Origin: Serinibacter salmoneus
Lineage (GTDB): Bacteria; Actinomycetota; Actinomycetes; Actinomycetales; Beutenbergiaceae
DNA: 64,000 nt
NCBI RefSeq assembly: GCF_002563925.1
Contig: NZ_PDJD01000001.1
Coordinates: forward strand, 1,928,973 to 1,992,972
Reading direction: 5' to 3'
Shown: one piece after another, positions 41,632 through 45,537 of the stretch
Position numbering within the stretch: the first letter of the stretch is position 1
How the letters are laid out: each line of letters starts with the position of its first letter
Notes under the pieces: generated by a model
Databases searched by the model: none
What the model was told of the DNA's origin: nothing
The model's input: the letters and a program-made list of their open reading frames with translations, nothing else
Made by a program: the position numbers and the translations under genes

Positions 41632-42471
41632 TCAGGGCGCAGTGAGGAAGATGTCGAACAGGTCCGGGTGGTGGGCGTGCACCAGCACCCCGAACACGAC
41701 GGCGTCGAACAGCAGGTGCACCACCACCACGTACGGCAGCGACTTCACGCGGGCGAACAGCCAGCCCTGAACGAGCGCGAACGGGATGGTCAGCGCCGGC
41801 CCCCACTCGCGGTAGCCGAGCTCCCACAGGAACGAGACGAACACCGCGGCCTGGAGCACGTTCGCCAACCAGAACGGGAAGTGCCGCTGCAGCAGGGTGA
41901 ACACGGTGGCGATGAAGAACAGCTCGTCCCACAGCCCCACGGCGTTCACGCCGATGAACAGCCGCACGATCTCCCCGCCGGTCTCCAACGTGGGCCAGTT
42001 CGCGTACACCCCTGAGCCGATGAAGTAGAACGGCAGGATGAGGTAGCCGACCACCACCACGACGGCGATGTAGATCCACTGCCAGCCCTGCCACCGCCAG
42101 CCGCCGGCCATCGGGAACCGCACCGCGTCCTCGCGGTAGAGGTACCGCGAGATCGCCCATGGCACGAGCACCGCAAGCCCCAGGGCCACGGTGAATCGCG
42201 CCATCCCGGCGTTGGAGAGGTCGGCCTTCAGCGAGATCGTGGAGACGATGCCCTGCCCGATCGCGATGAGCAGCAGGTCCTTGCCCAGCGCTCGGTCGGC
42301 CCACAGCCCCAGTGCCACGCCCGCCACCAGCGGCAGGTAGCCCAGCGGCCGGACGTGGACGGCGAACAGCAGCACCGCCGCCCCGCACACCAGCGCGGCG
42401 GCCGCGATACGCAGGGCGGGCCTCAGGACGGCGCCGGTCTGCGCCGTCGTGCCCTCAGCGGGGGTCGACAC
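41632..42471 (-). CDS. CPBP/Abi-like intramembrane protein
   Basis: The 279-residue protein has about eight membrane helices. The C-terminal half resembles CPBP intramembrane proteases: GLWDELFFIATVFTLLQR stands where the EExxxR motif is expected, and VVVVHLLFDAVVF provides the third-motif His. The first motif has DE instead of EE and lacks the Arg at the usual position, so protease activity is doubtful. The gene overlaps the 3' end of cimA by 17 bp, so the two are likely co-transcribed even though no link to amino acid synthesis is known. Confidence 0.65.
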   Translation of the reverse strand: MSTPAEGTTAQTGAVLRPALRIAAAALVCGAAVLLFAVHVRPLGYLPLVAGVALGLWADRALGKDLLLIAIGQGIVSTISLKADLSNAGMARFTVALGLAVLVPWAISRYLYREDAVRFPMAGGWRWQGWQWIYIAVVVVVGYLILPFYFIGSGVYANWPTLETGGEIVRLFIGVNAVGLWDELFFIATVFTLLQRHFPFWLANVLQAAVFVSFLWELGYREWGPALTIPFALVQGWLFARVKSLPYVVVVHLLFDAVVFGVLVHAHHPDLFDIFLTAP

Positions 42472-44065
42472 CCGCCTGCAGCAGACCGTAGACCAGGGAG
42501 TCCACGAGCGCCTCGTAGGCGGCCTCGAGGATGTTCGGGCCGACCCCGACCGTGCTCCACGTCTCCGCGCCGGAGGAGGTCTGGATCAGCACACGGGTGA
42601 CGGCGTCGGTGCCGTGGGAGGTGTCCAGCAGTCGCACCCGGAAGTCGGTGAGCTCGAACTGCTCGATCTCCGGGTACACGCCCACCAGGGCCTCGCGCAG
42701 GGCGTGGTCCAGGGCGTTGACGGGCCCGTTGCCCTCCCCGGTGCGCACGACCCGGGAGCCGCCAGCCCGCAGCTTGACGGTCGCCTCACATTCGCCGTCG
42801 CCCCCGATCGCCTCGGTGAAGTGCACCGAGGCGCGCCAGCTCTCCATCTGGAAGTACCGCGGCCGCTCGCCGCCGACCTCCTCGTGCAGCATGAGCGCGA
42901 AGGAGGCGTCCGCGGCGTCGTAGGTGTAGCCCTGCGCCTCGGACTCCTTCACCCGGTCCACCACGCGCCCGAGGATCTCCGGGCGGCCGGCCAGGTCGAA
43001 TCCGAGTTCGCGGCCCTTGAGCTCGATCGAGGCGCGCCCGGCCATGTCCGAGACCAGCATCCGCATGTCGTTGCCGACCAGGGTCGGGTCGATGTGCTGG
43101 TAGAGGTCGGGGTCCACCCGGATGGCGCTGGCGTGCAGGCCCGCCTTGTGCGCGAAGGCGCTGGAACCCACGTACGGCTGGCGGGTGTAGGGCGGGATGT
43201 TGGTGACCTCGCTGATGGCGTGCGCGGTGTGCGTCGCGTCCGCGAGCTTGCCCTCCGGCAGGCACCGCGCGCCGAGCTTCAGCTCGAGGTTCGCGGCCAC
43301 CGCCAGCAGGTCCGCGTTGCCGGTCCGCTCGCCGTACCCGTTCACCGTGCCCTGCACGTGACGCGCCCCGGCGGCCACCGCGGCCACGGAGTTCGCGACG
43401 GCGCAGCCGGAGTCGTTGTGTGCGTGGATGCCGAGGCGGCCGTCGGTGGCGGCGCGCACCTCGGTGACGATGCGGTGCACCCAGTCCGGCAGCATGCCGC
43501 CGTTGGTGTCGCACAGCACCACGTCGCTGGCGCCGGCCTCGAAGGCGGTGGCGACGGCGCGCATCGCGTAGGAGGGGTCGAAGACGTAGCCGTCGAAGAA
43601 GTGCTCGGCGTCCAGGATGACCCGGCGCCCCTCGCCGACCAGGTAGCGCACCGAGTCGGCGATCATCGCGAGGTTCTCCTCCGGTGTGGTGCGCAGGGCC
43701 CGCTCCACGTGCCGGATGTCGCTCTTGGCGACCAGGGTGATGACCGGCGCCTCGGAGTCCAGCAGCGCGCGCACCTGGGTGTCCTGGTGGGCGCTGGTGC
43801 CGGCCTTGCGGGTGGAGCCGAAGGCCGCGAGCTGGGCGGAGGCGAAGTCGAGTTCCTTCGCGGCGAGCCGGAAGAACTCGGTGTCCTTCGGGATCGCCCC
43901 GGGCCAGCCGCCCTCGATGACCCCGACCCCGAGCGCGTCGAGCATCGGCGCGATCGCCATCTTGTCGGCGACGGTGAGGTTCATGCCCTCCTGCTGCGCG
44001 CCGTCGCGCAGGGTGGTGTCATACATCTCGACGACGGTGCCGTCGAGCGCCAGGGGCGTGGTCAT
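42455..44065 (-). CDS. cimA: (R)-citramalate synthase
   Basis: The 536-residue enzyme condenses pyruvate with acetyl-CoA to citramalate, a threonine-independent route to 2-ketobutyrate and isoleucine. Typical markers are VEMYDTTLRDGAQQEGMN at the start of the TIM barrel, VIEGGWPGAIPKD, the metal-binding HAHND, and the NGYGERTGNADL motif of the family. The regulatory LeuA-dimer domain fills the last 130 residues. It resembles the dedicated CimA type rather than 2-isopropylmalate synthase. It is controlled by an attenuator (44173-44251) with its own leader peptide. Confidence 0.93.
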   Translation of the reverse strand: MTTPLALDGTVVEMYDTTLRDGAQQEGMNLTVADKMAIAPMLDALGVGVIEGGWPGAIPKDTEFFRLAAKELDFASAQLAAFGSTRKAGTSAHQDTQVRALLDSEAPVITLVAKSDIRHVERALRTTPEENLAMIADSVRYLVGEGRRVILDAEHFFDGYVFDPSYAMRAVATAFEAGASDVVLCDTNGGMLPDWVHRIVTEVRAATDGRLGIHAHNDSGCAVANSVAAVAAGARHVQGTVNGYGERTGNADLLAVAANLELKLGARCLPEGKLADATHTAHAISEVTNIPPYTRQPYVGSSAFAHKAGLHASAIRVDPDLYQHIDPTLVGNDMRMLVSDMAGRASIELKGRELGFDLAGRPEILGRVVDRVKESEAQGYTYDAADASFALMLHEEVGGERPRYFQMESWRASVHFTEAIGGDGECEATVKLRAGGSRVVRTGEGNGPVNALDHALREALVGVYPEIEQFELTDFRVRLLDTSHGTDAVTRVLIQTSSGAETWSTVGVGPNILEAAYEALVDSLVYGLLQAGVDPR

Positions 44066-44172: not shown

Positions 44173-44226
44173 AAAAAGCCTCCCGGGTTGCGGGAGGCAG
44201 CGCGTCCGGGAGGGGCCGGACGCGCT
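44173..44226 (-). promoter_or_regulatory. cimA transcription attenuator (two competing hairpins)
   Basis: In the minus-strand transcript the first hairpin is AGCGCGTCCGG / CCGGACGCGCT (44226-44199), beginning right at the leader stop codon. The terminator is GCCTCCCG / CGGGAGGC (44198-44178) followed by five T (44177-44173). CCTCCCGG inside the first hairpin is complementary over 8 bases to CCGGGAGG of the terminator's second arm, so opening the first hairpin can give an antiterminator. Confidence 0.75.
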
Positions 44227-44251
44227 AGGTAATGATGACGAGGTGTGCCAC
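44225..44251 (-). CDS. cimA leader peptide (MAHLVIIT)
   Basis: This nine-codon frame starts at GTG 44251 and reads M-A-H-L-V-I-I-T-stop. Four of its seven codons after the start are Leu, Val, Ile, Ile, the end products or relatives of the pathway. It stops directly at the first hairpin. A CATACT -10 box ends 7 bases upstream, so the peptide is read from a leaderless transcript. Stalling of the ribosome at the Leu/Val/Ile codons would alter the fold of the RNA and let transcription reach cimA. Confidence 0.75.
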   Translation of the reverse strand: MAHLVIIT

Positions 44252-44258
44252 GTCGGCC

Positions 44259-44264
44259 AGTATG
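44259..44264 (-). promoter_or_regulatory. -10 box of the cimA leader transcript
   Basis: CATACT on the minus strand lies 7 bases before the leader GTG. A convincing -35 is not seen; GTGACC at 44284-44289 is weak. Confidence 0.55.
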
Positions 44265-44329
44265 CCACAGCCGACGTGGCGGCGGTCACATTCGTCCGTG
44301 ACCGCCGCCACGGCAGACTGCCGGACAAC

Positions 44330-45445
44330 TCAGACCAGGCGGGTGAGCCACCCGTGGGTGTCCTCGGCCCGGCCGTACTGGATGTCGGTGAGGGTCTGGT
44401 ACACCCACTGCGTGGTCTCCCCGGCCTCGCCCTCGCCGACTGTCAGGTCGAAGCCCTCCCCCGCCAGGCGCCCGATCGGGGTCACCACGGCGGCGGTGCC
44501 GCACGCGAACACCTCGGTCACCTCACCGGAGCGCACGCCCTCGATCAGTTCCTCGACCGGGATGTCGCGCTCCTGCACGTCGAAGCCGCGCTCGGACAGC
44601 AGCGTGATGATCGAGGAGCGGGTGACGCCCTCGAGGATCGAACCGGTCAGCCGCGGCGTGCTGGCGGTGCCGTCCTTGCCGATCACGAACACGTTCATCC
44701 CGCCGAGCTCCTCGAGGTGGGAGTCGGTGGAGTCGGTGAACAGGATCTGGTCGAAGCCCTTCTCCGAGGCCTGGGCCTGCGGCAGGAGGGAGGCGGCGTA
44801 GTTGCCGCCGCACTTCGCGTCCCCGGTGCCCCCGGGCGCCGCGCGCTTGATGTCGCGGGTGAGCCAGATGGAGACCGGCTTGATGCCGGAGGGGAAGTAC
44901 GGGCCGACAGGCGAGGCGATCACGAGGTAGTCCACGCGCTGCGCGGCCCGCACGCCGAGGAAGGACTCCGAGGCGAACATGAACGGCCGCAGGTAGAGCG
45001 AGGAGCCCGGCGTGGTGGGCACCCACTCGGCGTCCACGTTCACCAGAGCGCGGATGGACTCCAGGAAGTCCTCCTGGCTCAGCACGGGCAGGGCCAGGCG
45101 CAGCGCGCTGCGCGCGAACCGGGCGGCGTTCGCCTCCGGGCGGAAGGTCCACACCGACCCGTCCGGGTGGGCGTAGGCCTTCATGCCCTCGAAGATCTCC
45201 TGGGCGTAGTGGAGAACGGCGGCGGCCGGGTCGAGCAGGAGCGGGGCGTAGGCCTCCACGCGACGCTCGTGCCAGCCGTCGGCCGGGGTCCACGTGGCGC
45301 GGGCCATGTGGTCGGTGAAGTCGACGCCGAATCCGAGGGCGGCGAGCATCGCCTCCCGCTCCGCCACGGTGCGCGGATTCGAGGACGGTCGCACCTCGAA
45401 GGGCTCCACGGAGCCGGTGCGCGGTGCGGTCGCAGGGGTGGACAT
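44330..45445 (-). CDS. ilvE: Branched-chain amino acid aminotransferase
   Basis: The 371-residue fold-type IV PLP enzyme carries out the last step of leucine, isoleucine and valine synthesis. K211 in GDAKCGGNYAASLL binds PLP. EIFEGMKAYAHPDG, RSALRLALP, YLRPFMFA and EELGGMNVFVI are family signatures of the longer (BCAT type II) proteins. GGAGG precedes ATG 45445. Its 3' end is about 80 bp from the cimA leader promoter, so cimA is transcribed at least partly on its own. Confidence 0.94.
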   Translation of the reverse strand: MSTPATAPRTGSVEPFEVRPSSNPRTVAEREAMLAALGFGVDFTDHMARATWTPADGWHERRVEAYAPLLLDPAAAVLHYAQEIFEGMKAYAHPDGSVWTFRPEANAARFARSALRLALPVLSQEDFLESIRALVNVDAEWVPTTPGSSLYLRPFMFASESFLGVRAAQRVDYLVIASPVGPYFPSGIKPVSIWLTRDIKRAAPGGTGDAKCGGNYAASLLPQAQASEKGFDQILFTDSTDSHLEELGGMNVFVIGKDGTASTPRLTGSILEGVTRSSIITLLSERGFDVQERDIPVEELIEGVRSGEVTEVFACGTAAVVTPIGRLAGEGFDLTVGEGEAGETTQWVYQTLTDIQYGRAEDTHGWLTRLV

Positions 45446-45537
45446 GGTGGTGCCTCCAAGATCAGGTGAGTAGAACCTACGCCTTGGACGCGACCGGGCG
45501 GAAACGCCGCATGGAGTGCGGCGGCCCGCGTCGCGTC

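Follow-up and report, generated by a model that had tools for sequence, protein, structure and literature searches.

The window, meaning the whole 64,000-nucleotide stretch of Serinibacter salmoneus DNA that was analysed, contains the citramalate synthase gene cimA downstream of the branched-chain aminotransferase gene ilvE. Citramalate synthase serves isoleucine synthesis. A compact element lies between the two genes, and its features are collected in Table 1. A sequence-only reading of this stretch had described a CATACT box, a nine-codon MAHLVIIT leader 7 nt further on, a stem at the leader stop and a terminator with five T. All of these are present, on the minus strand. The leader GTG begins 7 nt 3' of the -10 box and the reading frame is VAHLVIIT-stop by the code, although the first residue would be Met (MAHLVIIT). 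The G of the leader TAG is the first G of the hairpin HP1. The end of ilvE is about 65 nt from the -10 hexamer and the cimA ATG is 107 nt past the T tract.

Table 1. Features of the ilvE-cimA interval in the window
Feature	Position	Strand	Remarks and basis
cimA attenuator (predicted)	44264-44173 (92 bp)	minus	between ilvE and cimA; order 5' to 3': -10, leader, HP1, terminator, T tract
Extended -10 element TGG-CATACT	44259..44267	minus	sequence; hexamer CATACT at 44264-44259
Candidate -35 GTGACC, weak	44284..44289	minus	19 nt 5' of the -10 hexamer; sequence only
Leader ORF GTG GCA CAC CTC GTC ATC ATT ACC TAG	44225..44251	minus	predicted leaderless; 9 codons
Control codons ATC ATT (Ile6-Ile7)	44231..44236	minus	codon conservation among relatives
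HP1 hairpin	44199..44226	minus	begins inside the stop codon and abuts the terminator; fold and covariation
Intrinsic terminator stem-loop GCCTCCCG-CAACC-CGGGAGGC	44178..44198	minus	terminator scan and covariation
Terminator T tract TTTTT	44173..44177	minus	sequence
cimA, citramalate synthase	42455..44065	minus	NCBIfam TIGR00977, 602.5 bits (cut-off 450)
ilvE, branched-chain aminotransferase, upstream neighbour	44330..45502	minus	NCBIfam NF009897, 477 bits against 307

The predicted 79-nt RNA folds at -41.9 kcal/mol, compared with -22.8 (sd 2.95) for 200 dinucleotide shuffles (z -6.5). A terminator scan returned 1 site, on the minus strand, where 0.0 were expected. No promoter was called at the element by a sigma-70 scan, the promoter being weak by E. 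coli standards. At curated thresholds the only Rfam matches in the window are to rRNA; the cimA element has no match, its best sub-threshold score being 19.8 bits against 49.5 for anti-hemB, and 12 related regions gave 0 matches. Identity with a known Rfam family (ilvB motifs, T-box and others) was rejected on these results.

Two-sided repeats are also seen close by. An inverted repeat at 44247-44280, GCCACGTCGGC...GCCGACGTGGC, spans the -10 box and the leader start and is by eye absent from the near relatives L083 and L084. A hairpin at 44281-44306, GGCGGTCAC...GTGACCGCC, lies just 3' of ilvE without a T tract and is perhaps ilvE's own terminator.

Distribution of the element and its association with cimA

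The same layout is found upstream of cimA in all 24 genomes of the family (Beutenbergiaceae) examined, with leaders such as MAHLVIIT, MAHPALLIT, MAHLALVIT, MTHTSALIIG, MAHQAHTQLIIG and similar. The sequence-only reading had proposed that an attenuator controls cimA through a very short leader peptide, and that loss of both stems from close relatives that keep cimA would speak against this. Such loss was looked for and is not seen in these genomes; both stems and the Ile codons are retained in 24 of 24, which is consistent with the proposal. The element could be parsed in 45 out of 80 named loci, mostly from other actinobacteria, including Cellulomonas, Cellulosimicrobium, Demequina, Pedococcus, Nocardioides, Nonomuraea, Streptomyces, Amycolatopsis, Kutzneria, Lentzea and Pseudonocardia. 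The S. coelicolor gene for citramalate synthase is presumably SCO5529. Among the loci without the element, cimA follows ilvE directly in L008, L032, L035 and L038. Where ilvE is not a neighbour, as at L083, cimA still has the element.

A covariance model (R1) was built from 53 sequences of the element. At E ≤ 0.01 it matches 233 of 394 genomes sampled from the class, in 97 of 138 genera. Citramalate synthase is present in 308 of the same 394 genomes. R1 matches are found in 227 of the 308 cimA-bearing genomes and in 6 of the 86 that lack cimA (Fisher p about 1e-30, uncorrected for relatedness), leaving 81 cimA-bearing genomes with no match. In 77 out of 80 R1-match regions, picked among the best matches listed and mostly one per genus, cimA is the downstream gene. 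The three others have ilvB at L188 (checked) and at L207 (read from translation), and a small protein at L212. At E 0.001, R1 matches 45 of 296 genomes sampled across the phylum, the class included. By these sequence comparisons the cimA attenuator is real and widely conserved in actinobacteria.

The module copy at L212 (G125:C6:196130-196860) has the leader MFTPRIII and precedes a 103-aa protein for which there is no NCBIfam match. From its look this protein is taken to be a relative of the acetolactate synthase small subunit. The genome also has cimA.

The relatives compared below come from 110 loci, many places having been fetched twice, from which 3 without cimA and 9 without an automatic leader or terminator were removed. 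The remaining 98, some of whose long leaders were probably called from too early a start, were joined by 69 further loci to give 167. L190 and L205, with a basal stem of GCGCA/TGCGC, failed the anchor, so that 165 were retained, 135 of them distinct. Geometry was measured in the 133 relatives with the last Ile in frame.

A TGN-NANNNT box was found by automatic search 6-8 nt 5' of the leader start in 63 of 70 cimA loci. The -10 and the start codon lie 6 or 7 nt apart in every one of the 24 family genomes; in L017, L021, L028, L030 and L031 (Nonomuraea, Acrocarpospora, Planotetraspora) the spacing is about 10 nt. Of the 98 loci kept from the 110, 21 lack the TG of the extended -10. It is probable that the cimA leader peptide starts at the 5' end of the RNA. 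Such a leaderless start is not new, because the S. lividans leaders and the C. glutamicum ilvB leader (PMC8079986, PMC11857589) precede it. The earlier view that the arrangement is unusual therefore does not hold for leaderless leader peptides, already reported from S. lividans (PMC8079986). Citramalate synthase as the target does seem unreported in the full-text searches made.

Leader codons and downstream genes

The last Ile codon is present in 135 of 135 relatives by construction of the set. The codon preceding it is also Ile in 117 of the 135 distinct relatives, and the codon two before it encodes Leu, Ile, Met or Val in 115. Within the family the pair is Ile-Ile in 18 of 24 genomes and Leu-Ile or Val-Ile in six, these six being the nearest by cimA identity (L083-L088, 77-83%). 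In this branch Leu or Val may therefore count too. The leader stop codon is TAG in 82 of 135. The control site seems to favour a rare Ile codon: 75 of 135 relatives have ATT as the last Ile codon, and in six genes of the window ATC is used 113 times and ATT twice.

Twenty regions containing the module were fetched from other classes of the phylum, and the genes behind it are mostly other than cimA. Leaders ending LLLT or LLLR are followed by leuA (L230, L249), while LVLIT, VLLIT, LVLID, VVVFV and similar endings are followed by ilvB (L231, L232, L235-L240, L243, L246-L248). VIIIE precedes leuB (L244) and IIIIA precedes cimA (L233). NCBIfam confirms these leuA, ilvB, leuB and cimA genes except L237, which was read from translation, and no downstream gene was assigned at L241, L242 and L245 among the 20 regions. 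Leader codons for the amino acid of the pathway, a hallmark of trp-type attenuators, are thus found with one exception. This is L234 (G469:C11:6840-7970), from another class, where a VLLI leader lies near a prephenate dehydratase gene and so falls outside the pathway rule.

The genome of the window has a second, weaker R1 match (L113; G000:C1:1788657-1788750, minus strand), with the leader MSHQELLTGPR before leuS (TIGR00396, 453 bits for a 483-aa piece). A TAGGCT box is located 6 nt 5' of the ATG, the HP1-terminator layout is that seen at cimA, and the terminator is closely similar. The best evidence that the control codons are what is sensed is provided by these natural swaps between cimA, leuA, ilvB and leuS in the same RNA frame. 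On the codon comparisons, the cimA leader very probably reads isoleucine.

A second leader within the window, MRNGLLVLVVSHLGD, lies before ilvB at 52697-52650 on the minus strand, with TAGGGT 6 nt 5' of its ATG, and is followed on the same strand at 52628-52593 by a terminator, GCCCCTC...GAGGGGC-TTTT. This ilvB leader site (52697-52593) is not among the R1 matches listed for its own genome.

Stems, spacing and the search for an antiterminator

Covariation of both stems in relatives, suggested as a check in the sequence-only reading, was looked for and found in HP1 and in the terminator. The upper five pairs of HP1 have two-sided changes in 7 to 24 of 53 sequences. The basal five pairs, GCGCG/CGCGC, are identical in 53 of 53 within the class and vary in other classes. 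The anchor used for the 135 relatives demands CGCG, and basal invariance in that set is therefore partly by construction; the 53-sequence set is without this anchor. Against a species-swap control the varying stacks of HP1 reach z 8.6 to 12.9 and those of the terminator z 2.0 to 8.2 (67 effective sequences). Only HP1 and the terminator stand out in a species-swap scan of 4-bp helices present in at least a quarter of the relatives. The terminator 3' arm is off by a column or two in alignment A1, hence the 53-sequence terminator counts cover only 4 pairs. In the shuffle test the number of pairs changed on both sides, 7, is not above the shuffles, 116 of 500 of which reach it; the other measures are above. 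Sequence and covariation together point to an intrinsic terminator between the leader ORF and the gene, as in trp-type attenuators.

The end of the last Ile codon is 5 nt from HP1 in 96 of 135 relatives; in another 22, of which 16 have Streptomyces-type leaders, it is 8 nt away. HP1 varies in length from 22 to 80 nt, and the gap between it and the terminator is 0 or 1 nt in 134 of 135. With HP1 counted as closed (zero length), the distance from an A-site at the last Ile to the terminator has a median of 9 nt, an sd of 1.5 and a maximum of 15 nt (n=133). The same distance taken linearly is 31-91 nt with an sd of 17.2 (n=133). From the stop codon to the terminator the linear median is 29 nt, with all 133 at 20 nt or more and 86 of 133 above 27. 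In folding models with a ribosome on Ile, covering 9 or 12 nt from the first base of the codon, the predicted pairing of the HP1 basal five pairs is 0.81 or 0.30 and that of its first ten bases 0.86 or 0.60, respectively. HP1 is predicted to be opened by a ribosome at the stop codon.

A putative small hairpin, HP0, lies just 5' of HP1 in many taxa and would hold the Ile codons in its loop (-2.71; with the sides swapped -2.03, sd 0.12); it is not in the fold of the window RNA. It is seen in L017, L021, L028, L030 and L031 and in Streptomyces loci such as L016, with CUGCU-CAUUAUC-AGCAG in L017 and GCCA-UGAUUAU-UGGC in L016 as examples.

The sequence-only reading had also seen a clean antiterminator in the pairing of CCTCCCGG in HP1 with CCGGGAGG in the terminator. 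Both sequences are present and complementary, but there are relatives without this antiterminator. In a classical attenuator of this kind ribosome stalling would let the two pair, and the 8-nt complementarity in the window would favour this, as would the run of 8 in the near relative L084 and of 8 or 9 in 13 of 135 relatives, the window included. In 79 of 135, however, the longest such run is 5 or less (L083 and L085-L088, from the same family, are among them), and an all-pairs scan of the relatives did not find a helix of this type. The HP1-to-terminator pairing energy in the 135 relatives, -12.78 kcal/mol, equals that with arms swapped between species (-12.83, sd 0.17) and is no better than the letter-shuffled control (-13.21, sd 0.27). 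For the terminator's own stem the energy is -18.86 kcal/mol against -15.22 (sd 0.22) when swapped. In the folding models the terminator is folded with a mean of 0.92-0.94 in the 135 relatives, whether there is no ribosome, a ribosome at the last Ile or a ribosome at the stop. Values under 0.5 are predicted for one of the 135 when there is no ribosome (L121, 0.47), for none with the ribosome at Ile, and for two with it at the stop, namely L171 (0.24) and the window (0.05), where the terminator 3' arm is modelled as 0.75 paired upstream. A ribosome would be at the stop codon when isoleucine is plentiful, a state in which readthrough would be pointless, and the pairing in the window thus follows the wrong logic. 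The CCTCCCGG-CCGGGAGG antiterminator, no stronger than swapped arms and favoured in that state, was rejected, and the classical scheme is very improbable. Nor was a mutually exclusive antiterminator overlapping the terminator, as in trp-type attenuators, found in the form of a conserved alternative helix in the 135 relatives. A short or transient antiterminator that sequesters the terminator 5' arm, as modelled for C. glutamicum ilvBNC with a shared boundary trinucleotide, would suit the same broad layout of that system (PMC11857589). Invariant pairs cannot covary, so that a short invariant switch could escape detection. Against this, the mean predicted upstream pairing of the 5' arm before the 3' arm is made is 0.006-0.07 with a stalled ribosome; with no ribosome, or with one at the stop, it is 0.20-0.21. 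Sequestration exceeds 0.5 in 0 of 135 stalled, 2 of 135 with no ribosome and 9 of 135 at the stop. There is no third covarying helix, in that none of the other 4-bp helices occurring in at least a quarter of the relatives stands z 2 above the swap control, and this alternative is considered unlikely.

Pausing hairpins are standard in attenuators, and HP1 is directly 5' of the terminator. Its main role could be to pause RNA polymerase and so set the timing of the ribosome, with regulation by pause release. A pause hairpin alone gives no reason for the terminator to fail on stalling, however, and it is doubtful that this is the main role of HP1. The location between ilvE and cimA, about 65 nt from the end of ilvE to the -10 hexamer, would also suit a terminator that simply ends ilvE or readthrough transcription, the ORF being there by chance and nothing being regulated. 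This is hard to credit in light of the conserved Ile codons, the fixed geometry, the pathway-matched codons and the retention of the element with cimA where ilvE is elsewhere (e.g. L083).

Proposed mechanism and relation to known attenuators

From the comparative evidence, the element likely ties cimA to the supply of isoleucine by ribosome-mediated transcription attenuation. Comparison of the relatives establishes the conserved codons, both stems, their geometry and the match of codon to pathway at the level of sequence. Since the layout of Ile codons, hairpin and terminator is fixed across many actinobacteria, a stalled ribosome very probably decides cimA transcription. RNA polymerase would start at or beside the leader GTG, a presumed leaderless start, and a 70S ribosome would read the nine-codon leader from the 5' end. 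If charged tRNA-Ile is ample, the ribosome would reach the stop codon and open HP1, because the stop codon overlaps the HP1 base; the terminator would then fold and cimA would be off. If tRNA-Ile is scarce, the ribosome would presumably stall on the Ile codons with its leading edge at the HP1 base, HP1 would be mostly folded, and cimA would be on. The direction of control is likewise presumptive. Biosynthetic genes should be on in starvation, hence a closed HP1 must accompany readthrough, even though HP1 and the terminator have no base in common. The closure of HP1 on stalling depends on the assumed footprint (0.81 vs 0.30). The link from a folded HP1 and a stalled ribosome to blocked termination is the least certain step.

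Based on the geometry and on ribosome-proximity thresholds in E. coli (PMC4824070), HP1 is thought most likely to be a distance switch rather than a pairing partner, although the numbers are borderline. With HP1 folded, the stalled ribosome would be about 8-12 nt from the terminator, while about 29 nt would be left with HP1 opened. In E. coli, a ribosome near a terminator is reported to repress it, at least 10-15 nt of free RNA being needed for the terminator to fold fully and full function requiring more than 27 nt (PMC4824070). The 8-12 nt are at the edge of the quoted 10-15 nt and HP1 itself adds width; also, the linear stop-terminator distance is above 27 nt in only 86 of 133 relatives. 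The E. coli case, tR2, is like the proposed switch in that a nearby ribosome blocks the terminator (10-15 nt, about 27 nt to the stop), but it is an engineered reporter, with no folding linker or amino-acid sensing seen in the available part of the report (PMC4824070). Mutation of the start codon of the C. glutamicum ilvB leader is reported to lower expression by 80% (PMC11857589), as expected if no ribosome means termination. As a counterpoint, codon changes in the S. coelicolor ilvB leader are described as without effect (cited in PMC1262725). A class of actinobacterial attenuators without an antiterminator is tentatively suggested, in which the closed HP1 may be a folding ruler, flush with ribosome and terminator, so that the ribosome blocks closure of the terminator. 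Opened at the stop, the linker of about 29 nt would permit termination. A change of control codons alone would retarget the device, as for leuA, ilvB and leuS.

Compared with known attenuators, the cimA target seems new, and a search of the 135 relatives for the antiterminator that such a system should have did not find one. Full-text searches, which covered few subscription papers, turned up no attenuator of citramalate synthase. The element would place citramalate synthase, where the threonine-independent isoleucine route begins, under an isoleucine switch in much of the actinomycetes. At less than 100 bases in the window, it would lend itself to testing and reuse. Candidate attenuators of ilvB and leuS in Actinobacteria are similar to it in their branched-chain leader codons and terminators (PMC1262725). 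They differ in that 'citramal' has 0 occurrences in the available text of that study and that their leuA element is a pseudoknot. Attenuator components are missing from the actinobacterial candidates, as noted by the authors (PMC1262725), and the natural codon swaps together with the fixed geometry offer a means to settle why.

Leaderless leader peptides are reported before leuA, ilvB, leuS, trpE and other genes of S. lividans (PMC8079986). There leuL1, leuL2, ilvL, trpL1 and trpL2 are like the cimA element in having a short leaderless leader, pathway codons and one or more hairpins, in several cases with a U-tract like that of the cimA terminator. The S. lividans leuS leader MRAVRLLLSEPR resembles MSHQELLTGPR from the genome of the window. 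Unlike here, cimA and citramalate have 0 occurrences in the main text of that study, and the Ile pair with fixed spacing is a feature of the cimA element that is not seen for the S. lividans leaders in the available text (PMC8079986). The C. glutamicum ilvBNC attenuator also has a hairpin followed by a terminator, and branched-chain codons; its ilvB leader starts one nt from the 5' end and its dependence on translation is reported to have been shown by mutation (PMC11857589). The Corynebacterium ilvB-II motif (PMC10272879) is likewise among the closest known systems. The model proposed and tested for C. glutamicum has three hairpins, its antiterminator overlapping the terminator (PMC11857589). 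No conserved overlap was found at cimA, and the gene and codons of these corynebacterial systems are other than those of the cimA element. The M. tuberculosis ilvB1 attenuator differs in its gene, its 166-nt leader and its predicted mutually exclusive antiterminator (PMC13236596). It shares with the cimA element a short uORF rich in BCAA codons and a terminator, and is reported to be induced when BCAA synthesis is inhibited (PMC13236596).
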